64,000 nucleotides of DNA from NCBI GenBank assembly GCA_020852965.1, contig JADYZV010000031.1, positions 1 through 64,000 on the forward strand, in the 5' to 3' direction. A program made the position numbers and the translations under genes. Positions within the stretch are counted from its first letter, which is position 1, and every line of letters begins with the position of its first letter. This document shows, piece by piece, positions 1,657 through 22,678 of this stretch. The stretch comes from Pirellulaceae bacterium (GTDB taxonomy: Bacteria > Planctomycetota > Planctomycetia > Pirellulales > Pirellulaceae). The notes beneath the pieces were generated by a model. It saw nothing but the letters and a program-made list of their open reading frames with translations. It was not told the origin of the DNA and did no database searches.

Positions 1657-1726
1657 TTCTCTCCAGCGAACTAGCGTTGTTTGGTGAATCCTTTAGTTCT
1701 CACTGCTTTTGAAGTCTGGGAATTGT

Positions 1727-2071: not shown

Positions 2072-2276
2072 ATCGCCGTTTACCAGTGCGAGCCTCAATG
2101 TATTCGCGAGATGCGTGCGTGATTGCAGCATGTAACCTTGTCTAGCAAATTGTAAATGGCTCCCGCGGACAGGCTGCATCGCGTCAATGTTGAGATTTCC
2201 AGTCGGCCAATAGTTAGTCAAGCCAATAGCTGTGCATGATATACCGAGCAACTACTACGGCATTTGTGGTTTGAGG

Positions 2277-2327
2277 CCTCCAGCAGTCCAAGTGAACCAC
2301 AGAAAACCTTCGGTATCTGAATCTCTC
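2277..2327. repeat. Direct repeat copy 2 (about 50 bp)
   Basis: Second copy of the repeat at 1607-1656, starting CCTCCAGCAGTCCAAGTGAA. It lies upstream of the start of the small exported-protein gene. Confidence 0.7.
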
Positions 2328-2360
2328 AATTCAGTCGACGTAAGGAAGGCGAATCCTTGG

Positions 2361-2618: not shown

Positions 2619-2664
2619 CAAGACGCTCCTTTACCGAACGAGAAATGAAACAGACACAAGCCAA

Positions 2665-3690: not shown

Positions 3691-4059
3691 GGCAGTCACT
3701 CCTGCTTCTAGGCGACAATGAAATTGTGCCTTCCCACGGTGGTTAGGCTGTGGGCAAACCCTTGCGAGTTCGTCCAGCGCCCAACCACGTAGTGAAACAA
3801 GAGAGCGAGTCTCAGACTTCGCGTCAGTAGATGAAAACCTGTACTTGGACCACCGGCCCCATGAGTGAGAGTCCCTGCTCAGTCATGTAGCCGTACAATT
3901 CATCTACCCCGATTGGTGAACTACACCGGCAATCGTACAGAAGCTTAACGGCAACTTCAACAGTTGCGTTCGTTGACTAAGCGACTAACCCGCAACCTAC
4001 ATACTGCACACCAATATTTTTCGCCGCTTACTAACGCAGTGGCTTCGTCGTCTTTCATC
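3691..4059. other. Intergenic, nothing recognised
   Basis: Upstream of the DUF932-like gene I see no convincing coding region, tRNA or strong inverted repeat. A promoter for the leftward genes should be here, but no clear one can be named. Confidence 0.4.
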
Positions 4060-4360
4060 CGTCGGGGCTCGCCCGCTGAGGCCTTCAGGCCCTTGGCCCC
4101 GCACGGTGAAAGTCGACGGAGCCTGCTTGAGGGCGACTCACCTATTCAATTGCAGGCAAGTGGCTTTGTTGTCGGATTCCCGACGGGCTTGTCACATTGT
4201 GAATTAGAGTGGCGAAGCCGTGTCGGTGATTGCAGCTTGCCTGCCGATGACCGACCGGCTGAGCCGCTACTACTGGCGAGTGACATGGTTCTGAACTCGA
4301 TTGGGTTCCAGAGAATTCAGCACGCACCGTCCAATCGAGTTCTGTACCATGTCACGGGCA
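4060..4360. other. Structured non-coding region
   Basis: Several nested or adjacent inverted repeats are present. They are GGGGC/GCCCC around an AGGCC TTCA GGCC hairpin (about 4064-4102); a 9-bp pair GCAGGCAAG (4152-4160) / CTTGCCTGC (4236-4244) enclosing GTCGG ATTC CCGAC (4171-4184); and a 25-bp imperfect inverted repeat at 4280-4304/4331-4355. A 140-codon open frame on the plus strand crosses this region but has no recognisable protein features. A structured RNA or a DNA-processing site fits better than a gene. Confidence 0.45.
4280..4355. repeat. 25-bp inverted repeat with 26-nt loop
   Basis: The left arm at 4280-4304 starts GTGACATGGT and ends CTCGATTGG. The right arm at 4331-4355 is its reverse complement with two mismatches in the middle. 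The loop is 4305-4330. It could be a cruciform, an origin-type hairpin or an RNA stem. Confidence 0.8.
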
Positions 4361-4486
4361 ACAGACTGTTGAGATCCGCAAGGTAGTGTGCGTCGAACTT
4401 GCCAGGGCTTAAGCCGCTCCCTGCAAACGCAAGCCAGGTTGCCGCCTGTGAGCTTGGCGGGCGTTCCCATGGGCTGCTCTTTGCGA

Positions 4487-4603
4487 TTTTCCAGAAAAGA
4501 GCCGTTTTCCGGCGCCAGAAAATGTGCCATAATTGGAAAATAGAGCGTGTTTTCCAAAAATCAGATACTTTCCGGTGCCGGAAAGCATCGAAAAACTGGA
4601 AAA
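4487..4603. promoter_or_regulatory. Phased TTTCC/GGAAA boxes upstream of the AbiE-like pair
   Basis: There are palindromic boxes at 4487-4498 (TTTTCCAGAAAA), 4505-4522 (TTTTCC...GAAAA), 4533-4557 (TTGGAAAA...TTTTCCAA) and 4568-4585 (CTTTCCGG TG CCGGAAAG), plus a half site GGAAAA at 4598-4603. Box centres are about 21, 31.5 and 31.5 bp apart, close to whole turns of B-DNA. This is what an operator array for a cooperative repressor looks like. The last box ends about 50 bp before the antitoxin start, where autoregulated type IV systems bind. Confidence 0.6.
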
Positions 4604-4638
4604 TACGACCATGCTTTTAGGGGGAATGAGAGGCCAGA

Positions 4639-5715
4639 ATGCTTACCGAAGCGGAAATACGACAGCGATTTATCGAGGGATACGAGTTCCCACCGCTAAA
4701 GATCTGCCTAGCGGAGGCGGATCGGTCACTTGGCAGAAATGCGGAAATCGACGCCATTCTAGCGGTAGAGTTAGAGGGCGAGAGCTTCGACTTCGCAGCT
4801 GAGTTCAAGTCACGGAGCATTCCAAAGGTCTTCGAGCAGGGTCTTGCACAGATCGCAAGCATTGCTGAGCGAGAACAAAAGTTACCAATGCTTGTCGTCC
4901 CATACCTGCGCGAAACTCAGTTGCAGGAACTGCAACAGCGACAACTAAGCGGAATTGATCTCTGTGGTAACGGCGTGGTTATCATTCCGGGAAAAGCCTT
5001 TGTATACCGTACCGGCGCAAAGAACCAGTTTCCCGATTCTACTCCGACAAAGTTTGCCTACCGAGGGGCGACTTCACAGGTCGCCAGAGTATTTCTCTGT
5101 CAGCGACAATTCGAGTCGCTAAAAGACATTGAAGAAAAGATGAACGAACGCGGCGGGAAAGTTGTCTTGTCGACCATCTCAAAGGCACTAAAGCGTTTAG
5201 AATCCGATGTAATCATCGATCGATCTGGAAACGCAATTCGCCTGCTGCAACCAGAAAAGCTGCTCGAATCACTGGCCAAAAGTTACGCTGCTCCCAAGAT
5301 CAGAAAACAAGTTTCACTGTCATTTAAGAACAACGAGAAGAACCTAAGCCGTGTGGCTAAGTTGACCGCAGGCCTGGGCGATAAACAAACAAGCGACCCG
5401 TCTTTTGTCCTGACTGGAAAATCATCGATCAGTCAGTACGCCGTGATGGGAAGGGAAGAGGTTGTAGAGGTGTACACAAGAAATCTCGATTTGCTCTTAA
5501 AACAGTTCGGGGATAGCGTTGAAAAAGGCTCTCGATTTGCCGATCTTATCCTATACGAAACGATTGAACCCACTGTCTTTTTCGATCGTCGATTGGTAGC
5601 TGGTGTTCCCTACGCCTCGCCGATTCAATCGTACTTGGAGTGTTCTGCTGGGGACAAGCGGGAGATTGAGGTCGCAGATCAAATCAAGACACGGATACTT
5701 AACAAACTGGACTAA
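4639..5715 (+). CDS. AbiEi-like antitoxin with PD-(D/E)XK-type N-terminal domain
   Basis: The 358-residue protein is the first gene of a type IV toxin-antitoxin-like pair. Residues 30-110 look like a restriction-endonuclease fold: D38 in AEIDAIL, then E55-x-K57 in FAAEFKS, then a helix SIPKVFEQGLAQI. Residues about 145-215 form a winged helix (SLKDIEEKMNERGG...STISKALKRLESD), suited to binding the phased boxes upstream. The C-terminal half matches the general layout of AbiEi antitoxins. The start at 4639 has a GAGAGG ribosome site. The assignment rests on gene order and the partner; exact subfamily is uncertain, and the nuclease-like residues may be active or only structural. Confidence 0.65.
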   Translation: MLTEAEIRQRFIEGYEFPPLKICLAEADRSLGRNAEIDAILAVELEGESFDFAAEFKSRSIPKVFEQGLAQIASIAEREQKLPMLVVPYLRETQLQELQQRQLSGIDLCGNGVVIIPGKAFVYRTGAKNQFPDSTPTKFAYRGATSQVARVFLCQRQFESLKDIEEKMNERGGKVVLSTISKALKRLESDVIIDRSGNAIRLLQPEKLLESLAKSYAAPKIRKQVSLSFKNNEKNLSRVAKLTAGLGDKQTSDPSFVLTGKSSISQYAVMGREEVVEVYTRNLDLLLKQFGDSVEKGSRFADLILYETIEPTVFFDRRLVAGVPYASPIQSYLECSAGDKREIEVADQIKTRILNKLD

Positions 5716-5736
5716 TCAGACGGGCAGCAGAACGGA

Positions 5737-6597
5737 ATGAGCAATGACCCTCTACTTACAACGCTACTGGATCTTGATCTCGCGATTAGTCCCGTCCAGA
5801 AACTGATCATCGGCGGTGGTTATGGTTTGTATTTGAAGCAGCGTCATATCCAGGATGATCCAAGCATTCAGACCTTTTTTAGCCTAGATAGGCTACCACT
5901 GGCGCGAACCACTGAAGACATTGATCTTATCCTACGCGCTGAAATAGTTACTGACTCACCAAGCATGCAGAAGATCCGAGAGGCGCTAGACTCTTTGGGG
6001 TTTGAAGTGGTGGAGACGGCCAAATTCACTCAGTTTGAGCGATTGATGGAAGTTGGAAGGGTGAAAATCGACTTGCTCGCAAGTCCCCTCGGCGAGTTCG
6101 GTAGCAAGGTACCGCGAGATCCTCGTCGGGTGAAACCGCGACCAAGCGTGAATCTGCATGCCAGCAAGTTAGAAGAAGCCGTTGCCGTAGAACGAGATCC
6201 TCTGCGAATTCCGCTTCGAGGGAGATTGTCTTCGGGAAATGAACACCAGTGCGAAGTGCTCATTCCACAAGCGTTTAGCTATCTGCTGATGAAGCTCTTT
6301 GCCTTTCGCGATCGACAAGCGGATGCGAACAAGAACCTTGGTCAACACCACGCGATTGATATTTACCGAATCGTCGGCCTGCTAACAAAGGACGAGGATG
6401 CCAACGTGCGCCAGCTGGCCAGTGAATTTGCAAATCATCAGCACGTACAGGAAGCTGCTCGCATCATACACCATGACTTTTTGCCCGCTGATGGTATTGG
6501 TCGATTGCGGCTAATGGAGCACCCGCTTTACAGTGATCAATTCGACCTAAAGAATTTTGCAAACGAGCTTGCCGCGCTCTTCGCTTCGGGGAAATAG
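5737..6597 (+). CDS. AbiEii-type nucleotidyltransferase toxin
   Basis: The 286-residue protein has nucleotidyltransferase hallmarks: GGGYGLYLKQRH (residues 26-37) and TTEDIDLIL (58-66), whose two acidic residues would hold the metal. The rest fits AbiEii/AbiGii toxins, including an EVLIPQAFSYLLMKLFAFRDR segment. In this family the toxin modifies cellular RNA, for example by adding nucleotides to tRNA acceptor ends, and is opposed by the AbiEi partner; such pairs often block phage or stabilise mobile elements. It begins 21 bp after the antitoxin gene and is surely co-transcribed. Confidence 0.8.
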   Translation: MSNDPLLTTLLDLDLAISPVQKLIIGGGYGLYLKQRHIQDDPSIQTFFSLDRLPLARTTEDIDLILRAEIVTDSPSMQKIREALDSLGFEVVETAKFTQFERLMEVGRVKIDLLASPLGEFGSKVPRDPRRVKPRPSVNLHASKLEEAVAVERDPLRIPLRGRLSSGNEHQCEVLIPQAFSYLLMKLFAFRDRQADANKNLGQHHAIDIYRIVGLLTKDEDANVRQLASEFANHQHVQEAARIIHHDFLPADGIGRLRLMEHPLYSDQFDLKNFANELAALFASGK

Positions 6598-6702
6598 CGG
6601 ATCAAGCCATTTCTCGCGGCTACGGCGACACTTTCCGTGGAACACTTGTTTTAGAATTTGCTTCAAGCTCGCAGATAGCGAACTTGCTACGAGCCAGCGC
6701 AT

Positions 6703-6735
6703 AAAAAAACCGCCTTATGTTTCACTGCCCGGCGG
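6703..6735 (-). terminator. Rho-independent terminator of the 12751-6816 operon
   Basis: Read on the minus strand, CCGCC and GGCGG pair around a 16-nt loop and are followed by seven T residues. It lies about 80 bp after the last gene of the leftward operon. Confidence 0.65.
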
Positions 6736-6815
6736 AATTGGGTCAGGCAACCTTATGTTTATACTCTCGGCGCGGGGGAGTGTAAGCTCTAGTGTACCGT
6801 CTCAACCGACGGGAT

Positions 6816-8117
6816 TCACGGGGCGAGCATCCCTTTTTCGACCATAATTTCTCCGTACTTGGATAAATACGACTGTACGGTGTTGAGCGTGTCCTTATCC
6901 GCGATCTTCCAGCCATAGTCACCGCCTGTTTCGCGCTCGATTGGCCCACGCGGTCTGTCGTTGGCGTTATTGGCGAAGTAGATGATCGACTCAAGCCCTG
7001 GTCTACCTGGCTGGAACATCCTGGTGCCACGCAGCGCACTCAGCGACACTGGCCCCTTGCCACTGTTGTTACCGCGAAGCTCATAGCCGTCGGAGATAAA
7101 CGCAGTGAGATAGTTTCGTATCTGCGGCAAGTCGCGATTAAACTCCGTTTCGAGTTTGGCTTTCGCAAGCGCAGCTTCCTTTTCGCGCAGTGCCGCATCC
7201 TGTCGCTGCTTTTCAGCTTTGGCATCCGCAACGATCTGCTCTGCCATTTTCTCACCGGCTAGCTTGGCTGCCTCTGCTTTAGCTGCCGCAAGTAATCGCT
7301 CGTTCTCAGCCTCCTGGGCGGCAAGTAACTTTGCAGCCTCAAGTTTGGCATCTTCTTTGGCTTTCGCCACAATTTCACTTCGCTGTTGCTCTTTGATCTC
7401 TTCCAAAGCCCCGATCGCATCGCCAAGCGATTGCTGGGTATTGATTGGCAGCGACTCTGCACTGCGAGCCAGCACATTGAGTTCACTAGAAACTCGATCG
7501 ATAAGCGTGCGAGACTGGATGATTTCGCTCTCAATCTGGCTAAGCGCTCCAAGAAGCGACTCACCAGGCGTGTAGCCGCTGATCTGTTGTTGAATTGCCT
7601 GCTGCGGGGCCTGCATCAGCCCGGAGAGTCGTGCGGAAAGCGTCTCGGCTTGCGTTTCGGGCGGAAGGGTAACGGCGAGTGCTGCCATCGCCTGCTCGAT
7701 TAGCTCGATGCTGGAGGCAATTCGTTTTCCTTCTTCAGATTCTAGAAGGCCATTTAATCGCGTGGCGAGCACAGTTCTTGCCTCACCAAGCTGTGTGATG
7801 TTTTGCCGAATGACTTCACCGCGCTCGAGAACGCCTAAAGCGTGGTTCGCTGAGACCGCCTGCTCTTGTTGTTCATAGACTTTAGCCGTCTTCATGTCGG
7901 CCATGGCAGACTCCAGGTTTGCCATTTGCGCAAGGAGCTGGGTGTTAAGCTCCGTTTGCTCTGCAAGCTGGCTATCTTTCTCAACCGAAAGCGTTTTTGC
8001 CCTGTAGTAGGTGTAGGCAGCAAAAAGCCCAATGCAGATAAAGCAGCCGATGGCCAGAATGCGGCGGAAGCTAAGCTGAGAATCGTCGTTTTGTGGATCG
8101 GTACTGCTCTGGCTCAT
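6816..8117 (-). CDS. Membrane-anchored coiled-coil protein of the transfer operon
   Basis: The 433-residue protein has one transmembrane helix near the N-terminus (about residues 20-41, RRILAIGCFICIGLFAAYTYY). A long helical region follows, with a strong Ala/Glu/Lys coiled coil at about 240-335 (EIVAKAKEDAKLEAAKLLAAQ and similar). The compact C-terminal domain contains LRGTRMFQPGRPG and GGDYGWKIADKDT. No family was recognised. It is the last gene of a leftward operon behind the TraD-like ATPase (35 bp gap), so a role in the coupling complex or cell-surface attachment is a reasonable inference. GAGG precedes the ATG. Confidence 0.6.
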   Translation of the reverse strand: MSQSSTDPQNDDSQLSFRRILAIGCFICIGLFAAYTYYRAKTLSVEKDSQLAEQTELNTQLLAQMANLESAMADMKTAKVYEQQEQAVSANHALGVLERGEVIRQNITQLGEARTVLATRLNGLLESEEGKRIASSIELIEQAMAALAVTLPPETQAETLSARLSGLMQAPQQAIQQQISGYTPGESLLGALSQIESEIIQSRTLIDRVSSELNVLARSAESLPINTQQSLGDAIGALEEIKEQQRSEIVAKAKEDAKLEAAKLLAAQEAENERLLAAAKAEAAKLAGEKMAEQIVADAKAEKQRQDAALREKEAALAKAKLETEFNRDLPQIRNYLTAFISDGYELRGNNSGKGPVSLSALRGTRMFQPGRPGLESIIYFANNANDRPRGPIERETGGDYGWKIADKDTLNTVQSYLSKYGEIMVEKGMLAP

Positions 8118-8152
8118 GCGAACCTCGGGAAACTGAATGGAAGAATGGTAGT

Positions 8153-11100
8153 TTACTCTGGTGGTTTCTTTGGTGGAGTCTTCGGCTGTTGTCGTCGACG
8201 CTCCTGCTCGGCGAAAAGCTTTTCTAAGCCTTCGACGCCGCTTGCTGACGGCTGCCCAGGTGGTTTATCGGGGGCAGGTTGTGCCTTTGCTTTTCGTTGT
8301 TTGGTGTTCTTGCGTGGAGTAAGTGGCGCTACTGCTGGATACTCTGCCAAAGCACTATGACGGGGGAGTTCGCGTGAAATGATTGCCCCTGGAACCTGGT
8401 CAGGCCAGGGGGAGGACTTTCGCGCCTCGTACTCCTGTTGCGAGATGTGATAGGTAGACCGCATGATAAAGGGCATTCCGCCAAACTGAGCGTATCCAGC
8501 TCCGCGGCGAACCTGCACAATGCTCTGCTCTGGCGCATCGGTTGCAAGAAGCAAGTCATTGATTCTTAGTCGAGGGGATACTGTTTCAGCGTGGGTGAGC
8601 CTAGCAATGGCTCCGGCCATAAACCCAACACCGCCAGCGTTTAACTGGAAGCTTCGTTGATGCTCCAGTAACTCGCCGGATGATTCGACAATTTCTTGCA
8701 AGTCCTGAGCATTGGAACAGGCAAAGACTTGCTTGAATCGCGTATTGGTTCGAACTGCTGGCGTGAGATCTACGCCAGCTCGTTTCAGGTCGAGCATAGA
8801 CTGGTTGGCAAGAATCAACCCAATTCGCATGCTTCGAGCAGTCTGCATGATCAGTTCCAGGTTATTGGCGATAATTCGCTGGAACTCATCGACGAAGACA
8901 AACACCTGCTTGCGGCTTTTCTCCGGCGTACATCGGGCCGAGCCCAAGAGCGAATACAGTGCGATACGGGCGATCTCCGCCGACGAGGTAGTTCCAAGTG
9001 AAGACGGCAGGTGCATGTAGACTACCTGCGGTGTGCGAAACACGTCAGAAAACTCCAAGGCGTCGCTTGTCACCTGCGGGGGATGGTTTTTGCTACCGGC
9101 TTCGATATTGAGAGCTTCAGTGGCCGCCAGACGTTGTGTGACTGAGATCAAGTGCGAGGCGTTTTTCTTGACCTCTTTGCTTATTCCATCAACGCGCGGG
9201 AGCAACCGCGCTAACTCAGCGAAGCTCTTAATCTCCGGATACTCCGTCAGAGTTCGGTAGAGGTACTCGGCGTTTGCATCTGAATAAAAACCTCGGCCAT
9301 AATCCGTGCCGTACTGTAGCCCCAGAGCAGCGGTGATGATGTCAGTCTTTTGGTACAGGGACAGGGCGCTGAAGTACTCTTGATTGAACGGATTAAACGC
9401 GTAAGTGCTTCGGTTGAGCTCATTCGTGAACCAGCGAAAGCGTTTTCCTGCTACTGCTGCATCAATCTGGCTACCGGCAAATAACGCCGTGTCGTCGCCT
9501 TTCATATCAAGCACCACGACCGAGCAATCGGGCTGGCGAATAATCTGATTCAGTAAGATCGAAATTCCGAGCGCAGTTTTTCCCGAGCCAGAATCCCCAA
9601 GGATGTGCGCGTGCTCGGTAAAAACCTTGATTGGAACCATTACCGGGGAGTTATCACTAGCGTTTGCCCCAAGTAAGAGGCTTTCCTTTTCAGTGTCGTT
9701 TCCCTGAGTCGACATCTCACTTACAAGCTGCTCCCAGTTTCCGAATGAGAGTAGCGAGTCTGGATGCGATTCGAGTTGCTGACGAAGGCTTGCCGTTATG
9801 CGAACAGTGTTTGCGTAGAAAAACGCCAGTGGGAGTCCAAAGGAGAAGGCGATAAGCACCAATTCGCGAGTGACAAAATAGTAGCCAGCAAGTACGAACA
9901 TGGCTCCCCAGCGCATGTTCTCGGCGCGAGTGGTGAACTGATCCGGTTGGGGAAGATCGATAAGCATCAAAAAGCCACCAATTGCGCTGGTGATCGAATT
10001 CCCTCGCCGCTGCGCCGGTTCTGGTTTGCTTACAAGCTCCTGCGATTTTTCAAACTGCTCTTTTAGCGTTGCCAGGTATGCAGCTCGCTGCGATTCCGGC
10101 ATCCGCTCCAGCGTCCGTTGTTGATATGGCTGCAACTGGAATTCCGGTTTCTGCTCCTCCACAGCAGGCTTAGGAGTCGAAGAGGGGTTTGAGCCAAAGG
10201 TAATTGGCTTTTTCTCGGGCAGCGGTTGGCTTGCTTCTTTTTTCTCTTCGGCCTTCTTGGAAGCCGCCGCATAGCGAAGCATTTCTCGAAGGCCGATCTG
10301 TTGGCTAAATAGCGGATTAAGCGTCGATGCCCAAAGCGAGATCAGGCCGATAAACATCCAGTTCCTGGCTTGTGTGCTTCCTGCAGGAGATTGGAACAAT
10401 CCAGGGGCACTGCGATCTTGGAGGTTGTAGCAGAACCAGTCGCGTAGCGACCTGCGAAATGCGGTAAGCGCCTGAGTAAATCCCAATAGCTTTCGCGCGT
10501 ACAAAAGCGCTGCAATCAGCTCAATTGCGACTGGTACTGCGAGCAGCACGCCAATAGTCGCAATCATGGCCCAGACTCGCAGCATGATTATCCCAATCGG
10601 CGGGTCTGGAATAAATGAGACATAGATCCACGGCATGCCAACGAGTGCGAGAAACCCGAGAAAGTAAAACTCGATTCCTCGCGACGTTTTTAGGCCATAG
10701 AACCTACTTGCCCAGTTCTTGCGAATCCTCTTTGCTCGCTGCCGTTCAAATGGGGCGGAAGTGCCAATAAGTAGCGACTGCGTCGCAAAACGGTCAGAGA
10801 CAATTGCCGTTAAGAGGCTTGCCATCACCAGCATTACCATCATCGAGCGCACTATCAGCGTAGCTGGCAACAGCAGCGGAAGTACAACGAGATACACCGC
10901 CCAATGCCAAGTCTTCCTGGGCCAGCCAATAAGCGTTACCACGATGATGCAGACGCCGACAAAGGCCAGTATTCCCCAAACATCGATTGCGATTCCGAGC
11001 GGTAGAAAATACTCAGGCACGCTGCGAATCAGGCAAAACACCACGGCAATGAACACCGTTCGACGGATCAGCCGCCACCTATCGCGTTTACTTGCATCGC

Positions 11101-11218
11101 GGGCAAGAAACTCCGTTTGAATGCCTTCCGTGGAGCCAAGCCGCTCATGCTGAATCGGATTCTCGATTGATTGTCGCAGATTCTCCCGCTGCGTCGGAAC
11201 ATGCCGGTCGTTTACCAT
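8153..11218 (-). CDS. TraD/VirD4-like conjugative coupling ATPase
   Basis: The 1021-residue protein carries several transmembrane segments in the first 240 residues (about 52-70, 80-98, 107-140, 184-202, 215-240) and another pair near 435-470. A P-loop ATPase follows, with Walker A GDSGSGKT (541-548) and Walker B VFVFVDEFQ (772-780), then SMRIGLILANQSMLDLKRAGV, typical of TraD/VirD4/TraG coupling proteins that feed DNA to a transfer channel. The C-terminus is Pro/Lys-rich. It is longer than the usual 600-750 residues because of the extra membrane domain and a Pro/Glu-rich linker (about 320-400). The start directly follows the stop of the preceding gene (TAGATG), implying coupled translation. 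Confidence 0.8.
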   Translation of the reverse strand: MVNDRHVPTQRENLRQSIENPIQHERLGSTEGIQTEFLARDASKRDRWRLIRRTVFIAVVFCLIRSVPEYFLPLGIAIDVWGILAFVGVCIIVVTLIGWPRKTWHWAVYLVVLPLLLPATLIVRSMMVMLVMASLLTAIVSDRFATQSLLIGTSAPFERQRAKRIRKNWASRFYGLKTSRGIEFYFLGFLALVGMPWIYVSFIPDPPIGIIMLRVWAMIATIGVLLAVPVAIELIAALLYARKLLGFTQALTAFRRSLRDWFCYNLQDRSAPGLFQSPAGSTQARNWMFIGLISLWASTLNPLFSQQIGLREMLRYAAASKKAEEKKEASQPLPEKKPITFGSNPSSTPKPAVEEQKPEFQLQPYQQRTLERMPESQRAAYLATLKEQFEKSQELVSKPEPAQRRGNSITSAIGGFLMLIDLPQPDQFTTRAENMRWGAMFVLAGYYFVTRELVLIAFSFGLPLAFFYANTVRITASLRQQLESHPDSLLSFGNWEQLVSEMSTQGNDTEKESLLLGANASDNSPVMVPIKVFTEHAHILGDSGSGKTALGISILLNQIIRQPDCSVVVLDMKGDDTALFAGSQIDAAVAGKRFRWFTNELNRSTYAFNPFNQEYFSALSLYQKTDIITAALGLQYGTDYGRGFYSDANAEYLYRTLTEYPEIKSFAELARLLPRVDGISKEVKKNASHLISVTQRLAATEALNIEAGSKNHPPQVTSDALEFSDVFRTPQVVYMHLPSSLGTTSSAEIARIALYSLLGSARCTPEKSRKQVFVFVDEFQRIIANNLELIMQTARSMRIGLILANQSMLDLKRAGVDLTPAVRTNTRFKQVFACSNAQDLQEIVESSGELLEHQRSFQLNAGGVGFMAGAIARLTHAETVSPRLRINDLLLATDAPEQSIVQVRRGAGYAQFGGMPFIMRSTYHISQQEYEARKSSPWPDQVPGAIISRELPRHSALAEYPAVAPLTPRKNTKQRKAKAQPAPDKPPGQPSASGVEGLEKLFAEQERRRQQPKTPPKKPPE

Positions 11219-12004
11219 CTATTCCTCTTCGCCGTTTTCAGTGGAAGGCAAAGAGTCGACTGGCAGGGAAGCCTCTTCTTGCGACTTGGGCATCAGTCGG
11301 GTGCTGTCGCGATTTATAAGCAGTGTCCCAAGCTCTGGCACGACTTCAACTCGGAATCGAACCGGCCAGGTGTGACGCAGAAGCGTATCCTCTAGATCCT
11401 GCGCTTTTGACTTGGTGGAAGTAATCAGCGTTATCATGAATCGCTGATGGGTGATGAGTTCTGAGAAGATTTGATTACTCGCAGCGGTTTCCAAATAGGC
11501 TCGGCATTTGCGAATCACATGGGCTGCCGGACCTCCCAAGTCAACCCGCATTTGAGACAGTGTTGGTGTGCCGGTCGTTTGATCGATGTAGAAGCTTGCC
11601 AGCTTGAGTTTCTTACCCGTAATTCTGCCGAAGTTTTCAAACATCTCTCGGACTAATAGTCGCTCGTGTAGCTCCTCCTGCGCGCAGCAGAAATAGAGCA
11701 TGCCCAGGTTCTCTGCCAACGATTGCGGCCCCATTGCCTTGGATTTGTTACCCGCGACATTAAAGATGCGCATCGCATTGGGGCCAAACACGAAATAGCT
11801 GCGTCCCAGCGGCAAATCGAATCGATTGAGAAAGCGGTGCTTAACCAGCCGAGAGGTGACTTTGGTTACGGCATTTGGCTCAGAGTCGCTGAAGAACAAT
11901 CGATGAAGTACATCGCGCGTGGTCAAACGATAGCGAGCAATGTGCTCTAGAATGTCAGAGTCTCTATCGCCGATGTTGGCATCGGTCTTTGCGGCTTTTG
12001 CCAT
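11219..12004 (-). CDS. Replication-relaxation-like winged-helix protein 1
   Basis: The 261-residue protein opens with RDSDILEHIARYRLTTRDVLHRLFF (about residues 13-37) and a second half-wing (KVTSRLVKHRFLNRF). This is the pattern of the replication-relaxation family found on plasmids and integrative elements, often next to coupling ATPases. The rest resembles the family's nuclease-like core but no catalytic motif is clear. It starts 3 bases after the stop of the upstream gene and its own stop touches the start of the ATPase gene, so the three genes form a tightly coupled unit. Role in replication or mobilisation is inferred. Confidence 0.6.
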   Translation of the reverse strand: MAKAAKTDANIGDRDSDILEHIARYRLTTRDVLHRLFFSDSEPNAVTKVTSRLVKHRFLNRFDLPLGRSYFVFGPNAMRIFNVAGNKSKAMGPQSLAENLGMLYFCCAQEELHERLLVREMFENFGRITGKKLKLASFYIDQTTGTPTLSQMRVDLGGPAAHVIRKCRAYLETAASNQIFSELITHQRFMITLITSTKSKAQDLEDTLLRHTWPVRFRVEVVPELGTLLINRDSTRLMPKSQEEASLPVDSLPSTENGEEE

Positions 12005-12007
12005 GTA

Positions 12008-12751
12008 TCACCAGAGTTCGTACGGCAGTGATCGCGACTCGCAATCTTGATGAAAGGCGAGCACACGGTCTTTGTTATAGGCACCGCCGAATTCAAGTAC
12101 GAGTGACGGAGTCGCACTAGGTGAGTCTGCAAGCACCGCATCAGGCAGCTTTTCGTGTTTTCTGTAGGGGGCAAGTAGGTCTTCGCCGATCCAGAGTCTT
12201 GCTTGCTCTGGTCGGCTGTGGCGCATCTGGAGATACATTTCTGTAACTCCCAAGTCGTGGCTCGCCTGAAGCTCTCGCTTTAGCCGTCCACTTGCGCGGC
12301 CACCAAAATGCTTGGCTGCTTTTGCCGTTGCGACAAAGCAGCGGCAAGCCCGCGCAGGCTCCTTCCAACGGCTTTGTAGCTTCCAGGCGACAGCTCCAGC
12401 ATCCGGTGTCGGGTCGCCTGGTGCCCAACAGAGAGTAGCCGCATCGAGACTATCAAGCGTCGAGGCGATTACCTGCTGTGAGACGAGAAACCCGGCATCG
12501 ACAAGCACCGCCATGCGACGACGGGCAGCCTCGGTTTTAGCTTTCGTCGTCGCCCAAAAATGCGTCCCAAGTTGCTCTAAGCTGATCGCTCGAACCTTGC
12601 AGCATAGTGCTTGAACGATTTCCGTATCGCGCTCGGTTAACTGCAATTGAAATGAGCTTATAAAACGTGAACTACTACCGGGAAAAACGACTACTCCATA
12701 GTAGTTACTCGACCAAGGTGTCGATAGATACTCTGAGCTAACACCTTGCAA
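12008..12751 (-). CDS. Replication-relaxation-like winged-helix protein 2
   Basis: The product of up to 247 residues contains LTERDTEIVQALCCKVRAISLEQLGTHFW, the same N-terminal winged-helix plan as its downstream partner. It ends with a compact domain containing PDAVLADSPSATPSLVLEFGG, which recalls the acidic core of replication-relaxation proteins. The only extended start is a TTG at 12751 with no good ribosome site; a TTG just before QLTERD (about 12646) is an alternative. It is the first gene of the leftward transfer operon and its upstream region is the hairpin array at 12869-13100. Confidence 0.5.
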   Translation of the reverse strand: MQGVSSEYLSTPWSSNYYGVVVFPGSSSRFISSFQLQLTERDTEIVQALCCKVRAISLEQLGTHFWATTKAKTEAARRRMAVLVDAGFLVSQQVIASTLDSLDAATLCWAPGDPTPDAGAVAWKLQSRWKEPARACRCFVATAKAAKHFGGRASGRLKRELQASHDLGVTEMYLQMRHSRPEQARLWIGEDLLAPYRKHEKLPDAVLADSPSATPSLVLEFGGAYNKDRVLAFHQDCESRSLPYELW

Positions 12752-12868
12752 GAATTTACCGGCGCTAACTCCTTACTGGCTTGTGGGTTAGGGAAACTGC
12801 TTGCGGCACCTCAAACGGCACTTGGCCCCCAGACCCGTGGTGCCACTGATTTCCCTCACCATAAAGTA

Positions 12869-13100
12869 CGCGTCGCCGCAGGCGACGCGCTCTGCCAGGC
12901 GTTCAGCCTGGCAGAGGCCGGAGCGTACAGCGGAGGCCTTTTTTGCCCGCACCCGGCCCTAGCCGGGAGTGGGCAGCAGCTCGCTCCCAAAGCGAGCTGC
13001 AAGCGGTCGTACAGACCGCTCAGCGTGCATCGGCCCCTAGGCCGATCACGCGCATGGCCGTTCAGGCCAAAAGCCGCGTCCAGCGGCGCGCGAAACGCGC
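12869..13100. repeat. Array of ten back-to-back hairpins
   Basis: Ten inverted repeats follow each other with almost no spacer. Stem spans and loops: 12869-12889 (loop GCA, 9 bp); 12890-12916 (GTTCA, 11 bp); 12916-12938 (GTACA, with a GGA/GGA internal loop); 12945-12974 (CCTA, 13 pairs with one G-T and one A-A); 12976-13000 (CCCAA, 10 bp); 13002-13020 (GTACA, 7 bp); 13023-13051 (CCTA, 12 bp with one bulge); 13055-13069 (GTTCA, 5 bp); 13073-13087 (GTCCA, 5 bp); 13086-13100 (CGAAA or AAA, 5 bp). A TTTTTT run sits at 12939-12944 after the third hairpin. Loop GTNCA occurs five times. No protein-like frame fits. It may be a structured RNA, an origin of transfer or replication, or a protein-binding array. 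Confidence 0.85.
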
Positions 13101-13143
13101 AGGCGTCACTAGGGAATTGACAGTCCATTGAAAACTAATCGTG

Positions 13144-13163
13144 TGCTGCCACTTCGCGGTGGC
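13144..13163. repeat. Isolated hairpin beside the array
   Basis: CTGCCAC and GTGGCAG pair around TTCGCG. It lies between the hairpin array and the 3' end of the leftward gene at 13188, so it may end that transcript, though it has no T-tract. Confidence 0.5.
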
Positions 13164-13187
13164 AGTTAGGTGACCAATTGCAAGCGA

Positions 13188-13634
13188 CTAAAACCAGAAT
13201 CGCTTCCAGCGCAATCGGCGTTCTGTTTTTCTGATCCACTGCCTTGCTTCAACTAGCCCACAGATTGCATCACTGAGGTGCTGCGAGTGAAACGATTTGC
13301 AATCTGCCTCGCCTTTGGTTGATGCACGGTGTCGCCTTTGATCGACACTCCAATAACGCTCTCCCATTGGGCTAGTATTTGCCCAGATGCGGGTAACTAC
13401 AAGGCCATGCTCGATGGTGTGCGCGGGTCGATTTTTTGGTCGTTGTGACTGCTGCGAAGATTTCACCTGCGCGGTAGCAAGTGCTTTGGTGATGTCTGTT
13501 AGTAGGATTCTATCGGGCTTCTCGTTTCTAGGTCGCATGGTCCCTTTCTTGTGTTCGTTGCGGTGGATAAAAAGCGGTGCATTGTCACTGCCTTTTCCTG
13601 GCGGTGCTCTAACCGTTTCAGAGTAAAGCTGCAT
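13188..13634 (-). CDS. IW-motif element protein, longer divergent copy
   Basis: The 148-residue protein has a basic N-terminal extension and a C-terminal half (about 77-145) that aligns with the small proteins at 2361 and 17872: RPAHTIEHGLVVTRIWANT, G-E-R-Y, then a C-terminal AxxWI. Identity is low but spacing of P-H, G, I-W-x-N, G-x-R and W-I is kept. The ATG at 13634 has GGAG 8 bases upstream and lies 2 bases after the preceding stop, arguing for coupled translation; the internal ATG at 13541 is possible. Function unknown. Confidence 0.55.
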   Translation of the reverse strand: MQLYSETVRAPPGKGSDNAPLFIHRNEHKKGTMRPRNEKPDRILLTDITKALATAQVKSSQQSQRPKNRPAHTIEHGLVVTRIWANTSPMGERYWSVDQRRHRASTKGEADCKSFHSQHLSDAICGLVEARQWIRKTERRLRWKRFWF

Positions 13635-13636
13635 GG

Positions 13637-13933
13637 CTAAAACTCCCCAGCAAGCTGCACCGTGGTTGCGCTGCGGTCGGCTTCGGTGACTATCTGCACG
13701 GTTTCACCACCGCAGACGGTGTAGCTAGAAAACACTCGATAGCCGTTTTGAATTGCGTCTAGGTTGCGGTGAATGTCTTCCTCACCGCATTCGCCCCAAT
13801 CGCAAGCGGCATGACGATTTAGAAGTTTGCCGATGTCGGCATCGGACAAACTGAGTTCCACGCCGCGGGTAACATAGATTTCACCGAGCGGGTAAATGCC
13901 GTGATGATGTGCCATGGGTTCTCTGGTCTGCAT
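13637..13933 (-). CDS. Plasmid-type small protein (DWGE...ITEADRS family)
   Basis: The product (about 98 residues from the ATG at 13933, which has GGGGAAA upstream; 92 from the ATG at 13915) contains YVTRGVELSLSDADIGKLLNRH, CDWGECGEEDIHRN, YRVFSSY and VTEADRSATTVQL. I recognise this pattern from small proteins common on proteobacterial plasmids and genomic islands, where the equivalent reads GDWGE...ITEADRS.TT.LLP. Their function is not known. It is coupled to the downstream gene at 13634. A 28-bp imperfect inverted repeat lies in its leader at 14013-14073. Confidence 0.7.
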   Translation of the reverse strand: MQTREPMAHHHGIYPLGEIYVTRGVELSLSDADIGKLLNRHAACDWGECGEEDIHRNLDAIQNGYRVFSSYTVCGGETVQIVTEADRSATTVQLAGEF

Positions 13934-14012
13934 GATGGTTTTCCCCGAGTTTGTGAGCCTGCAATTCTTTGAATGCTGGCCCTTTACGTTTCTCGCACCA
14001 GCCGAAGGCGAC

Positions 14013-14346: not shown

Positions 14347-15423
14347 TTAGGCGTGAATGCCTTCTGAGATTTGCTTCCAATTTGCGTTGGAGAGAGTCAG
14401 AATCTGGCCGCCTAGCTGCTCAAGTTCGGTTGCTCGGTCGTAGTCTTCGTGCTCTTGACTCGATCGAGTAATCGCCTGCATCAGACCGTAGCGGCTCAGC
14501 TCTGCTTTTCCGTTGTGCCCGGCAAGCAGGTTTTTAAGAACCGTGTTTGACTCCAGCTCGTTGAGTCGAAACCGCTTTGTGGTGACCTCAACAACTTTGA
14601 ACGGGTCCGCTTTGATTGGTTCCGCTGCCGCGTCTTGCAAGCGATTAAGGTAGGCATCAAACCGCGGTTGCTTCAGTGTGGCTCTGAGCATATCGCGGAC
14701 TTTCAGCCAAAATGCGTGGTCATCCGCTCGCTGGGTATCTTCTGAGTAGTACGCTTGAGCGTTTTCAAGTTCGCCGATGTGCCGTCCTACGTGCTGACGG
14801 CGCAAGCTCGCATCAGGAACAATGGTGCCATTGGAGCAAACGAGAAAGTATAGAAGCGGCTCGATCTTGAGCGTTCCTAGTCCGATCTCGGAGTTACTTA
14901 GAACTATTCCCGCTTGGACCACATCGCCGGGGGTAACTTCCGCCTGAATCTTTGGCGTTACCGCTTTCAGGTAGAACTTGCGCGGGGTGATCTCAGCGCT
15001 GATAACTTGGAAGCCGTGATCCATCAGAATCGGCAAGGCGACATTTGCAAGCTCGTCGTTATCTAACACCCGATACCGATCGGAAAGTATCGCCCTTGCG
15101 CGGTTATCAAGCGTTCTGACTAGGAATTGCTTTTCACTGCGAATTAACCAAGTGGCTATGTTTTCTTCGAGCAAGTTCGGTGCTTCCTGCCGCATCCGAT
15201 CGTAGTACGGCTTCGGAATCTCCAACCGCTCTGCAAGTTGCTGGTGCCCGCTGGGAAGTAAGGTAAACTCCTCGCTATCGCTACCAAGCTCTAGGGTTAA
15301 TGTGGGTGCGTCTCCTTGGGCGCTAAACCGCAGTTGATTAGCGGGGGTGAGAAAATCCCGCTTCGCTTCTGACTGCCGCAATAGTTCGCCCAAAATGTTC
15401 TCCATTTCTCGTCCGGTTTTCAT
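14347..15423 (-). CDS. DUF932 plasmid/phage protein
   Basis: The 358-residue protein is a clear DUF932 member: an N-terminal strand-rich part (LRFSAQGDAPTLTLELGS, LPSGHQQLAERLEIPKPYYDRM), RAILSDRYRVLDNDELANVALP near residue 110, VQAGIVLSNSEIGLGTLKIEPLLYFLVCSNGTI in the middle, and a helical C-terminus. Such proteins are typical of plasmids and phages, sometimes near anti-restriction functions, but the activity is unproven. The ATG at 15423 follows GGAGAA. Its leader is the structured region at 15480-15720. Confidence 0.8.
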   Translation of the reverse strand: MKTGREMENILGELLRQSEAKRDFLTPANQLRFSAQGDAPTLTLELGSDSEEFTLLPSGHQQLAERLEIPKPYYDRMRQEAPNLLEENIATWLIRSEKQFLVRTLDNRARAILSDRYRVLDNDELANVALPILMDHGFQVISAEITPRKFYLKAVTPKIQAEVTPGDVVQAGIVLSNSEIGLGTLKIEPLLYFLVCSNGTIVPDASLRRQHVGRHIGELENAQAYYSEDTQRADDHAFWLKVRDMLRATLKQPRFDAYLNRLQDAAAEPIKADPFKVVEVTTKRFRLNELESNTVLKNLLAGHNGKAELSRYGLMQAITRSSQEHEDYDRATELEQLGGQILTLSNANWKQISEGIHA

Positions 15424-16376: not shown

Positions 16377-16658
16377 CGTCTCTAACTCCGGTTGGTTTCT
16401 TTGGCATTTAGCAGAAACTGAAAAAGAGCGTAAGTCCCTAGCTCACGGTGTTTGGTGCGTAACCAAACTCTCAACTCAAGGTGTCATCCGAGCTTCACTG
16501 CAATCCTCTCGGACTTTCCAAACTCTGAGCGATTCTCACTCATTAAGTGAGGTGCCACTTGCCGTGCTTAATTCATGGGGATTTAGGCACAAGCTAGTAC
16601 CTTGCTATCACGTTTAACTCCGTTAGCTCGTTGCTTGGATTTTTCCTGGAGGTATGTG

Positions 16659-17894
16659 ATGGCAAGTTGGTTTTCGAAAAACGAACACGAAGAAGCGCCG
16701 CAAGTCGTGGCGGGGGAGTTGGTACTTGATAGCCCTAAAGAACCTGGGGCTGTGGATGATATTGAATCTGGCCCTAGTGAGCCGAATGACAATGAAGGAG
16801 CGACAGGCCTTTCCATTCCTGCCGATGCGACGGATTCAAGCAGCTCCCTGGCGCTGTTGAGCCAAGCGCATCGCGCGATCGCAGAGGCCCGTAGTTTGGA
16901 TGAGATCAAGGGAATCCGTGATAAAGCCGAGGCGGCCAGAAAATACGCCCAGGCTGCCGGCATGGGGCTTGAGATTCAGAACTATGCCGCGGAAGTAAAA
17001 CTCCGCGCGGAGCGCCGCGCTGGGCAACTCCTTGCCAAGCTCAAACTCCACGGTGGTGACCGCAGGAAAGCAACCGCCGATGAGCGGGTAACTTTGGATG
17101 AGATCGGCGTTACCAAAGATCAGTCCTCGCGTTGGCAGTTAACTGCTGCGGTACCTGAGAAAAGTTTCGAGCGCTACGTTTCAGAAACCAGGCAGGAACA
17201 GGGAGAAGTTACCACTGCTGGTCTGGTGCGGATTGCCAGAGAGATTCGAGCGAAGGAACGAAACCGCGCCAAGGCAAAGGCCCAGCCTGAGCCGGTGATT
17301 GATTTTAAGCAGGTGGATTCCCTAGACACGCTCTGCGAGGAGGGTAGGAGATTCGCCTGTGTCTACGCCGATCTGCCTTGGGTCTCAGATACCGCAGCGG
17401 AAGGCAGCGAAACTACTGGACTGGAGCATTTTCTGAATTCCATGAAGGAAATGCCTATTAAGAACCTCGTTGAAGACGCTGCTCATATTCATCTGTGGGC
17501 GACAAACGAAACGCTCTTTGCGGCAAAACAGGTGATGGAAGCCTGGGGCTTTGTTTTCAAAGCCTGCTTGCTGTGCTTGAGCGGCTTGGGAAAACAAGGC
17601 GAGTACTGGGTCGAGGCGCACGAATTCTTGCTCCTCGGTGTTCGCGGTGAGCTGCCGCTGATGGAGCGCACGATGAATAGCTTCATGCGCGTTGAGCGTG
17701 CACCTGATGGCTGCCCTGCAGAGCGGGTGAGAAAAATCATCGAGCGGGTAAGCCCTGGCCCCTACCTCGAACTCTTTGGCAGAACTCCAGCAAGTGGTTG
17801 GACGATCTACAGCAACTTCATCAAAGACGTTGCCAACGAAGAAGAGGCTGAGAAAGAGAAAGGGGGCGAGCATGGCGAAGCAGCCTGTGCATGA
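16659..17894 (+). CDS. MT-A70 family adenine methyltransferase with ParB-like N-terminal part
   Basis: The ATG at 16659 follows TGGAGGT and is preferred to an ATG 57 bases upstream. The 411-residue protein has an N-terminal helical region resembling ParB-like proteins (RAERRAGQLLAKLKLHGGDRR about 117-136, then LDEIGVTKDQSSRWQLTAAV). The methylase domain has DLPW (238-241), a variant of the DPPW catalytic motif, and ends in the usual GRTPASGWTIYSN. Members methylate adenine N6 in DNA and are common on phages and islands, probably guarding against restriction. The Pro-to-Leu change in the motif is tolerated in relatives but worth noting. Confidence 0.8.
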   Translation: MASWFSKNEHEEAPQVVAGELVLDSPKEPGAVDDIESGPSEPNDNEGATGLSIPADATDSSSSLALLSQAHRAIAEARSLDEIKGIRDKAEAARKYAQAAGMGLEIQNYAAEVKLRAERRAGQLLAKLKLHGGDRRKATADERVTLDEIGVTKDQSSRWQLTAAVPEKSFERYVSETRQEQGEVTTAGLVRIAREIRAKERNRAKAKAQPEPVIDFKQVDSLDTLCEEGRRFACVYADLPWVSDTAAEGSETTGLEHFLNSMKEMPIKNLVEDAAHIHLWATNETLFAAKQVMEAWGFVFKACLLCLSGLGKQGEYWVEAHEFLLLGVRGELPLMERTMNSFMRVERAPDGCPAERVRKIIERVSPGPYLELFGRTPASGWTIYSNFIKDVANEEEAEKEKGGEHGEAACA

Positions 17895-18417: not shown

Positions 18418-18447
18418 CCGAACTCGCACTTGCGTGGCTTTCCAACC

Positions 18448-19938
18448 ATGAAACGCTTTGTCGCACTCGCACGCGTGAGCAGTCGCGAACAAGAGCGAGA
18501 AGGCTTCTCATTGGAGATCCAAGAGGATGCTCTCAAGGCGTATGCCTTGCGGGAAGGCGGCCAAATCGTCGAGCTGTTTCGCATTGCCGAGACAGCAAGT
18601 AAATCCGATGAGCGAAAGGCGTTTCGCGAGCTGGTGCGATACGCCAAGAAAAACGCTGCCAAACTCGATGGGCTCTTGTTTTACAAGTTAGACCGGGCGG
18701 CTAGAAACCTCTTTGATTACGTCGAGCTTGAACGCTTAGAATCCGAGTACGGCTTGCCGTTCATCTCCGTATCGCAGCCAACAGAAAGTAGCCCAGCGGG
18801 GCGAATGATGCGTCGGACGCTTGCAAACATGGCAAGCTTCTACACCGAGCAACAGTCAGTGGATGTCCGCGAAGGCATTTCCAGACGAGTGCAGGAAGGC
18901 TGGTTTGCTGGGAAAGCTCCCTATGGCTACCTGAATGTGCGTGTAAATGGCCGCAGCGTTGTGCAAATCGATCCTGAGGCGGCACCAAAGATCAGGCGAT
19001 TATTCCAACTTTTTGCCTACGAAAACCATACGCTGGATACGTTGGTGGAAGCGTTGAGTAGGGAAGGGTTTGAGTACCGGAAGTCGGCACGAAAGTTCCC
19101 GCGAAGTAAGCTTCATACCATCTTGAGAGACCGTTCCTATATCGGTGAAGTGCCATACTGCGGGAATTGGTACGCGGGAAAGCAGGAACCGATTATCGAT
19201 CGTGCGACCTGGAGCCGAGTGCAAAAGCTGCTTGGCGAAAAGGTCTATCACGCTTACGAACTGACCTACGCCGGTGGGCTCATTACTTGCGGGCACTGTG
19301 GGCACTTCATTACCGGGGAGCAAGTTCGCAAGAAGACCAAGGCGGGGGAGAACATCCACGTTTATTACCGCTGCTCAAAGTACCGCACTGAAGGCCACCC
19401 GAATGTTCGTCTTCGGGAGGCAGAAATCGATGAGCAGGTGCTGCGAGTGTTCGCGGCGATCCGCATCGATGATGATGCCCACCGCGAATGGTTTGCGATG
19501 GTGCTTAGGTCGCAAACCCGTGATAGCCAAGAGCAGTCAAAGAGCCAACGTGAGGATCTTCAGCGACAGTTGACCAAGGTGCTGGAGCAGCAGGATAGGC
19601 TACTTAACTTGCGAATCCTCGATGAGATCGACGCAGATACCTTCGCCGCAAAGAAGCAGGAGCTACGTGACCGCGAGTCAGAATTGAAGCTCGACATCGA
19701 GGTAGCAGACCGCTCGCATCACGAGATCGCCGATCTGGTGATGAAAGTGTTTGAACTCTCGCAAAGCCTTAGTGAGAAATGGCTTACGGCGGATTACGCC
19801 GAAAAGCGAAAGATCCTCGAAATCGTCTGTTTGAACCTTGAGTTAAACGACGCAAGTCTTTGCGTATCAATGAGAAAGCCCTTTGACGTACTCGCCAAAG
19901 GGCTATCTGTCCCATCAAGTCGGGCTGGCGGGATTTGA
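18448..19938 (+). CDS. Large serine recombinase (integrase of the element)
   Basis: The 496-residue protein starts with the resolvase domain (LARVSSREQEREGFSLEIQ, catalytic serine at residue 11 or 12; later DGLLFYKLDRAARN). A recombinase domain follows (about 165-260, including RSYIGEVPYCGNWY). Then comes a zinc-ribbon-like stretch (ITCGHCGHF...YYRCSKYRTEGHPN, last Cys not obvious) and a C-terminal coiled coil (about 350-430). These enzymes integrate elements unidirectionally at attP/attB. The final codons and the TGA stop at 19936-19938 lie within the tRNA-Pro gene, so the gene end belongs to the host attachment site. Confidence 0.9.
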   Translation: MKRFVALARVSSREQEREGFSLEIQEDALKAYALREGGQIVELFRIAETASKSDERKAFRELVRYAKKNAAKLDGLLFYKLDRAARNLFDYVELERLESEYGLPFISVSQPTESSPAGRMMRRTLANMASFYTEQQSVDVREGISRRVQEGWFAGKAPYGYLNVRVNGRSVVQIDPEAAPKIRRLFQLFAYENHTLDTLVEALSREGFEYRKSARKFPRSKLHTILRDRSYIGEVPYCGNWYAGKQEPIIDRATWSRVQKLLGEKVYHAYELTYAGGLITCGHCGHFITGEQVRKKTKAGENIHVYYRCSKYRTEGHPNVRLREAEIDEQVLRVFAAIRIDDDAHREWFAMVLRSQTRDSQEQSKSQREDLQRQLTKVLEQQDRLLNLRILDEIDADTFAAKKQELRDRESELKLDIEVADRSHHEIADLVMKVFELSQSLSEKWLTADYAEKRKILEIVCLNLELNDASLCVSMRKPFDVLAKGLSVPSSRAGGI

Positions 19939-19994
19939 ACCCACGACCTCTACCACCCCAAGGTAGCGCGCTAGCCAGGCTGCGCTACAGCCCG
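19920..19994 (-). tRNA. tRNA-Pro (GGG anticodon)
   Basis: Read on the minus strand: acceptor CGGGCTG, D-arm GCGC...GCGC, anticodon stem CTACC/GGTAG with loop TTGGGGT (anticodon GGG, proline), T-arm GTGGG TTCAAAT CCCGC, acceptor CAGCCCG, discriminator A at 19920. CCA is not encoded. The 3' half is overlapped by the end of the serine recombinase gene and is the likely attachment site. Confidence 0.95.
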
Positions 19995-21745: not shown

Positions 21746-22678
21746 TCATTGAGCTCCCTGTCTCTCGGGGCGCAGATAGATAAAACTCTTGCCAAGCCGC
21801 CCGCCATAATTACCGGCTGTAATCCGCACCAAACCGGGCGCTGACAGGGCGGCGTCGATAGCCGTGTAGGTGGCCTGGGCTACGGCGTCGAGGCTACTAC
21901 CATTGATGACGATCTCCATGATCGATGCAACCCCCTCGGGAACCCGAGACTGTGCGCCGAGCTTGTCTTTAAGCGTTGGGCAGTATTCGGCAAAGGTGCT
22001 GGCGATCATAAAACTGTAGCGACTACCCGCTTTGGACGCGCTGGCGGCCACTCCACCGGGAAAGGTCAGAACGCAGTCGTCGACTTGATTGACTGCCGCC
22101 GCCGCACGCTCGGCTGCGTCAATCGAGGCAGCTTCGCTAGTCGCCATAAACCAAAGGTTGCCCCCCATGACTCCGTCGCTAAAGCCAAACCGCCGCGTCA
22201 AATAGAACTCGCCACCCATAGTCGGCACGACCCAACCCTTGGTTCCGTAGCGCACGTCGCGAAACTGATGGCCGTCGCCAAAGAAGGCAACCTTGCGGCC
22301 GAGCTTGAAGTACTCAGGGCTATCGATTCGATTGAAGCAGCGAGCTGTCGGGCAGGTTAGCACATTCTGGCTGATCCTAGCCAGTAGCACTCGTTCCAAG
22401 TGCACCAGCCGATCTTTACGGAAACGCGGTACGTGTACTTGAATGATCGCTCCCATTCTCCCGTCCGGCGTCTTTTGGCCTGCGGTCACTCCATCCAGTA
22501 CTCGCGAAACACCCGCCTCGGAATCGCACAGGATGGTACTGCTGGCATGGCCGGTAACCGCATGGCAACAATGGTCGAGCCAAGTGCGATCGCGGGCCGT
22601 GACCAGGAATTCAGCATAAATACTGCGAAAACCTTCCGCATACGTATCTTCGACCAATGTGTCACGATCTTGGGGCAT
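21746..22678 (-). CDS. fhcD: Formylmethanofuran:tetrahydromethanopterin formyltransferase
   Basis: The 310-residue protein transfers the formyl group between tetrahydromethanopterin and (methano)furan-type carriers. It keeps the Ftr signature blocks: VEDTYAEGF near the N-terminus, TPDGRMGAII, FFGDGHQ, GGEFYLTR, GVMGGNLWFM, FPGGVAASASKAGS and EIVINGSSL...PGLVRITAGNYGGRLGKS. Bacterial versions are found in methylotrophs and planctomycetes, where they serve formaldehyde oxidation or detoxification. No other genes of the pathway are adjacent, but a folate C1 enzyme gene lies upstream at 22800. A heptamer repeat lies directly upstream of its start. Confidence 0.88.
   Translation of the reverse strand: MPQDRDTLVEDTYAEGFRSIYAEFLVTARDRTWLDHCCHAVTGHASSTILCDSEAGVSRVLDGVTAGQKTPDGRMGAIIQVHVPRFRKDRLVHLERVLLARISQNVLTCPTARCFNRIDSPEYFKLGRKVAFFGDGHQFRDVRYGTKGWVVPTMGGEFYLTRRFGFSDGVMGGNLWFMATSEAASIDAAERAAAAVNQVDDCVLTFPGGVAASASKAGSRYSFMIASTFAEYCPTLKDKLGAQSRVPEGVASIMEIVINGSSLDAVAQATYTAIDAALSAPGLVRITAGNYGGRLGKSFIYLRPERQGAQ

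Follow-up and report, generated by a model that had tools for sequence, protein, structure and literature searches.

The stretch of DNA analysed here (64,000 nucleotides of a Pirellulaceae contig, hereafter the window) carries, at positions 12869-13100, ten hairpins that lie side by side over 232 bases (H1 to H10, Table 1) in a planctomycete mobile element. This array belongs to a new conserved family of nucleic-acid structures of planctomycete mobile elements. We observe in this family a structure and its conservation, covariation in the stems, repeated motifs, a folded strand and a place beside a TraD-like operon. Our preferred explanation, held tentatively and at somewhat less than an even chance, is that the array is a strand-specific folded single-stranded DNA (ssDNA) site in the transfer or replication region of planctomycete integrative elements, with repeated hairpins on which a protein would dock.

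In the window, the minimum-energy fold of the plus strand with DNA parameters is ten separate hairpins in a row. As the initial annotation (made from the sequence alone) had suggested, both strands of 12860-13110 were folded, and each beat 200 of 200 dinucleotide shuffles, the plus strand more strongly (z of -11.4 with RNA parameters and -11.0 with DNA parameters) than the minus strand (-8.0 and -9.2). When the window was scanned in steps of 20 bases for perfect stems (5 bp or longer, loops of 3-6), the array held eight non-overlapping hairpins, against a maximum of five in any other 232-nt stretch. The ten end-to-end hairpins of that annotation are thereby confirmed, and its loop set is exactly the one present: GTTCA twice, GTACA twice, GTCCA once and CCTA twice. 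H3 is the hairpin whose text is most conserved, and in the window it is directly followed by six T. The H4 of the window is atypical for the family, its bulged C being paired and an A.A mismatch adjoining.

Table 1. Coordinates of the array hairpins and of the neighbouring features of the element in the window.
Feature	Position	Strand	Description
K3, TraD/TrwB-like coupling-type ATPase	8153..11218	-	TraD/TrwB domains
K2, second small protein of operon	11219..12004	-	beside K5 in relatives; no Pfam match
K5, replication-relaxation-like protein	12008..12751	-	first operon gene; true start probably further in
Inverted repeat CAAGGTGT-N19-ACACCTTG	12714..12748		between operon start and array
H1	12869..12889	+	9-bp hairpin, loop GCA; differs among arrays
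H2	12890..12916	+	type A, 11 bp, loop GTTCA
H3	12916..12938	+	GGCC-GGA-GC-[GTACA]-GC-GGA-GGCC; symmetric purine internal loop
H4	12944..12975	+	type B position, loop CCTA; A.A mismatch in place of A-T, bulged C paired
H5	12976..13000	+	10-bp hairpin, loop CCCAA
H6	13002..13020	+	type A, 7 bp, loop GTACA
H7	13023..13051	+	type B, bulged C13028, upper stem 7 bp, loop CCTA
H8	13055..13069	+	type A, 5 bp, loop GTTCA
H9	13073..13087	+	type A, 5 bp, loop GTCCA
H10	13088..13100	+	5-bp hairpin, loop AAA; outside modelled core
Serine recombinase of element	18430..19938	+	end overlaps tRNA-Pro (19919-19994)

Using a number of different searches, we found 31 further arrays, which makes 32 in all, planctomycete wherever the affiliation could be told. 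The genome of the window has a second copy (G000:C3, 72% identity), and a DNA search of 147 relatives added G007, G011 and two copies in tandem in G050 (G050:C1:90840-91239, 264 bp start to start). The initial annotation had proposed a covariance model from related elements; such a model (R1), built on H4-H9, returned 13 arrays in 10 of 197 relatives. A 21-letter pattern taken from H3 matched 61 stretches of an 84,980-species collection and 2 of IMG/VR (another scan of IMG/VR gave 0 matches, and neither of the two was model-positive). Nineteen of these 63 stretches were model-positive and held 20 arrays; 15 of the 19 were attributed to planctomycetes, and at least one C[GTNCA]G hairpin lay near the pattern in 18 of the 19, versus 0 of the 44 model-negative stretches. 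A second model (R2), searched in 392 genomes of the phylum and 241 of the family, found arrays in 3 and 15 of them respectively, six being new (26 to 32). The searches lose some arrays, as the one in G110, missed by the R1 search, illustrates. K23_9 (CP036526) and TBK1r (CP036432) are among the bearers, one locus (L068) has two arrays 1.17 kb apart, and the array cores are 64-81% GC.

The order and loop types of the hairpins recur across these arrays in outline: type A, H3, type B, H5, type A, type B, and then more type A-like hairpins. Type A is a stem closing on C[GTNCA]G, and type B has a CCNA-like loop with a single bulged base six or seven pairs beneath it; others carry purine mismatches. 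Distinct hairpins over the 32 arrays number 48 of type A (loops GTTCA in 29, GTCCA in 10, GTACA in 6, GTGCA in 2 and GTTCAA in 1) and 48 of type B (CCCA in 31, CCTA in 7 and ten others). By the rules used, 31 of 32 arrays have one or more type A hairpins and all 32 have one or more stems whose 5' side carries a single bulge; counted per array, 42 of 64 CCNR-loop stems have this bulge and 22 do not. The bulged base is C in 32 of the 33 distinct single-5'-bulge stems, whose upper stem has 7 bp in 27 cases and 6 bp in the remaining 6. In this order, H3 has a GGA/GGA internal loop around GC[GTNCA]GC. Of the 24 aligned arrays that have sequence at H5, 17 show tandem G.A/A.G pairs there and the other 7 ordinary pairs.

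The shape and the loops of the hairpins are kept in relatives, and the letters are not. In an unfitted MAFFT alignment of six sequences (A1, 50 pairs), both sides change in 17 of the 50 pairs (31 cells), a value that none of 500 shuffles reached, and sliding the partner by one column lowers pairing from 82.5% to 35.0-37.5%. One measure, the further pair types, was not above shuffles in A1 (451 of 500 shuffles scored as high). Pairing in helix 4 (H7) is low there, at 61.8% of cells, because G050 and G007 are misaligned. In a model-fitted alignment of 26 arrays (A3), which by its construction leans toward structure, both sides change in 45 of 50 pairs (269 cells) and every measure is above all shuffles. 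Conserved secondary structure with covariation support, one mark of a structured non-coding RNA, is thus present. The window does have a 124-aa open frame spanning the array, as a coding stretch would. When open frames were counted in the 26 arrays with the H3 motif (the six arrays without it being dropped), the best of the six frames was open in 15 of 26, and the hairpin spacing is not in threes; we therefore rejected a protein-coding stretch. That the array is chance GC-rich sequence, repeat debris or a coding stretch has a next to negligible probability, because there are 31 homologues, covariation and no kept frame. The initial annotation had taken structure and loops, and not the DNA text, to be under selection, so that one should find neither homologues without compensation or loop pattern nor a conserved protein frame. 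The relatives bear this out: the 31 further arrays have compensated stems and kept loops, and no frame is kept by the open-frame test.

The array was also said to adjoin a replication-relaxation/TraD-like operon, and the domain searches agree. Seven of the 10 members of the K5 alignment have a PF13814 match at E up to 1 (best 5.5e-8), the member of the window being without one, and TraD/TrwB domains are found in the operon. Profile searches of the PDB with K5 and with K7 (the putative initiator of relatives) gave only E above 0.4, K7 had no Pfam, NCBIfam or PHROGs match, and an AlphaFold model of K5 alone, with a mean pLDDT of 32.6, was set aside. As many as 25 of 32 arrays share a contig with a TraD-like gene, the kind of link to a coupling protein that is expected of an oriT; in 24 of the 25 the array is on the strand opposite to this gene and some 1 to 15 kb upstream of it, and the rule held in 6 of 6 arrays found after it was noted. 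The exception is G000:C3, where the array is downstream of TraD and on the same strand; the G011 array shares its neighbours. The one TraD-like gene found in L065 is not on the array contig, though this is 64 kb long, but on another, and the arrays of G007, G047, L081 and the two of L068 are on short contigs or at a contig end. By genome, a TraD-like gene is present in 9 of the 10 array bearers of the R1 search versus 26 of 147 overall, in 8 of 9 of a second set (K23_9 having been counted before) and in 6 of 6 of a third (one being the L065 genome again); 17 of the 26 TraD-positive genomes had no array in the R1 search, G110 being a miss of R1. The inverted repeat between operon and array (Table 1) is a candidate operator or nick site. 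We rejected it as a universal part of array loci, its exact inner form being present in 3 of 30 loci and a one-arm motif in 11 of 24.

In many relatives, the TraD operon is followed by protein-kinase genes, which surround a gene weakly matching Dna2, then by the array and, often, by ParB, ParA and the putative initiator. In L104 (3454-4479) and its relatives, this Dna2 match (E 0.039) comes with Cys motifs that appear Cas4-like by eye, and the gene is between two protein-kinase genes adjoining the array. The serine recombinase was found again in relatives. Among the proteins scanned, which represent part of the elements, we recognised neither a relaxase nor type IV secretion genes. In 1-14000 the tRNA end has no exact repeat longer than 11 bases that could have marked a left attachment site. 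The window also contains an AbiEi/AbiEii-like type IV toxin-antitoxin pair (4639-6597, with AbiEii above and AbiEi below the curated cut-off), two DUF932-like genes (2665-3699, below the curated cut-off, and 14347-15423), an MT-A70-type methyltransferase gene (16602-17894) with homologues (cluster K12) near arrays in several relatives and, beyond tRNA-Pro, a formylmethanofuran-tetrahydromethanopterin formyltransferase gene (21746-22678). In other loci, genes for a copper-type ATPase, a multicopper oxidase and outer-membrane efflux are beside the array-bearing element of TBK1r (L161, 464-9308), and one array-bearing contig has an Rfam group II intron match (L082, 645-769).

We next consider the strand. 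Counted outward from the type A and B loops on the plus strand of the 32 arrays, 838 stem positions comprise 820 Watson-Crick pairs, 9 G.T, 0 A.C and 9 others. With a single G.T pair among the ten hairpins of the window (12949/12970, in H4), the tolerance of G-T pairs that the initial annotation had also invoked turns out to be a weak argument. No type A or B hairpin was found on the other strand of the 32 arrays, where the tandem GA of H5 would read as TC mismatches. Because G.T but no A.C occurs near the loops and the purine mismatches are on the plus strand, we take the plus strand to be the one that folds. The whole of A3 shows no such asymmetry (27 G.T versus 20 A.C, p 0.38); 17 of these A.C cells fall in H7 and H8, where the alignment is poor, and in our judgement the missing asymmetry is due to these misaligned cells.

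The orientation of the arrays bears on two further explanations. That 24 of 25 arrays are upstream of the operon, and that an operator-like inverted repeat is found between the two in some loci, would fit a leader, terminator or operator of the TraD-like operon with hairpins acting on the minus-strand mRNA. However, the minus strand has no type A or B hairpins and A.C pairs are absent from the loop-anchored count, while the distance to TraD and the downstream position in G000:C3 are unexpected as well, and we consider this explanation very improbable. Somewhat less improbable, but still unlikely, is a double-stranded site, namely a cruciform-forming replication origin or partition site of a plasmid-like element. 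ParB and ParA families do match next to arrays, with the putative initiator on the far side in relatives, and in five loci 168-170 nt separate the end of the ParB gene from the start of the core. Yet the stretches examined around the arrays of the window, G050 and G000:C3 have no homologue of those Par genes, and features confined to one strand would be unexpected for a cruciform, where both strands matter.

The main rival of an ssDNA site is a new non-coding RNA of about 230 nt, transcribed from the plus strand, that would hold several copies of one RNA-binding protein or regulate the element; we regard this as a real possibility, of roughly one-third weight. Covariation and the one-strand G.T, GA and loop features are as expected of RNA, as is the fold with RNA parameters, and longest-ORF maps place the array mostly between genes in relatives. 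Against an RNA, the array is antisense within a run of minus-strand genes in several relatives, and the six T after H3 in the window would put a terminator-like layout inside the array. A linear scan of 12500-13700 found 0 sigma-70-like promoters, though 0.4 would be expected by chance and the sigma-70 consensus was the only one used. Searched with Rfam 15, neither the array of the window nor that of 14 other stretches matched a family above the curated cut-off, and at a lax setting matches were at chance level (best E 0.19). Finally, wobble pairs are few. H4-H6, the trio that aligns best and that we chose for this count, have 10 among 610 standard pairs, versus 21 among 195 for two RNase P RNAs from planctomycetes. 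When the same flanking rule was applied to both, the values were 5 of 179 for RNase P and 9 of 829 for the arrays (p 0.085, not significant, with related sequences that are not independent), so that part of the wobble difference comes from the way of counting. Fewer wobble pairs than in the RNase P of the clade are thus suggestive of DNA, and this comparison weakens them as a proof. Since wobble is apparently rarer than in RNase P and no plus-strand promoter was found, we favour ssDNA over RNA, a choice made by inference. The initial annotation had offered an RNA, an ssDNA origin and a protein scaffold without choosing; we lean toward ssDNA.

We found no description of such an array in Rfam or in the literature searched at the level of titles and abstract openings, and blastn of 12860-13110 against 72,556 plasmid and 50,697 phage records returned nothing at E 0.01. 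Some known systems nevertheless share parts of its design. CsrB/RsmZ-type protein-sponge RNAs have many hairpins with one loop motif, as does the array, which differs from them in its loops, in the lack of an Rfam match and in having two hairpin types in fixed order. The MS2 operator and the iron-responsive element have an unpaired base at a fixed pair count below a defined loop; the type B bulge is likewise at a set distance below its loop, but a bulged C, 7 bp and a CCNA loop are another combination. Like an oriT, the array has a coupling-type ATPase in its vicinity and, in some loci, an inverted repeat close by; unlike an oriT, its locus has no recognised relaxase and its nick site is a candidate only, and to our knowledge an oriT has far fewer hairpins. 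Terminal palindromes of linear replicons sit at replicon ends, and the G068 array, at 7.34 Mb of a 7.95-Mb contig, does not. Closer in size is sso1 of the integrative conjugative element ICEBs1, which is described as an orientation-specific ssDNA sequence of about 200 bp with three stem-loops, similar to plasmid sso sequences (PMC4595007). Both are several stem-loops on an integrative element, and the array, too, may act as ssDNA. Unlike sso1, the array has ten hairpins of repeated types, other partner genes and no match in the plasmid collection. An sso starts second-strand synthesis from stem-loops of one strand, and the structure of the arrays is likewise confined to one strand. An sso also depends on ssDNA made through a relaxase or Rep nickase; among the scanned proteins there is no known relaxase, and a replication-relaxation-like protein is present. 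Frpo and ssi are described as folded ssDNA promoters in the transfer region of conjugative elements that mimic -35 and -10 boxes (PMC11541004, PMC7736820). The array would resemble them as a putative folded ssDNA in a transfer region, and differs from them in its GC-rich cores and in that no such hexamers were found. The linear scan, with 0 sigma-70-like sites, speaks against a promoter of this type.

Returning to the folded ssDNA site that we prefer, one possible mechanism would be that the element, when it transfers or replicates, exposes its plus strand, which folds into a fixed row of hairpins. The C[GTNCA]G stems and the bulged-C/CCNA stems could then be several docking sites for a protein of the element, the adjacent replication-relaxation-like proteins being the first candidates, and the docked protein may position the transfer ATPase or start the complementary strand. 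In this mechanism DNA as the molecule, its exposure and the protein partner are what we infer. Several findings count against it: the scanned proteins include no recognised relaxase or type IV secretion genes, the arrays of G000:C3, G011 and L065 depart from the usual placement, most TraD-positive genomes had no array in the R1 search, and neither the whole of A3 nor the rule-matched wobble count gives a clear difference. A bolder proposal, and a rather doubtful one, is that the arrays represent a new class of transfer or replication site, an ssDNA scaffold with two repeated protein-binding types (C[GTNCA]G and bulged-C/CCNA) and purine-mismatch hairpins, read by replication-relaxation-like proteins in elements where no known relaxase was recognised.

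In conclusion, our results describe a deeply conserved structure family, without a match in Rfam 15, that is tied to elements with a TraD-like ATPase and no recognised relaxase. If the array is an RNA, it would be a new RNA family with two repeated hairpins that resemble protein sites. A folded ssDNA site, if that is what the array is, would offer a way to learn how these elements handle their DNA and what replication-relaxation proteins bind.
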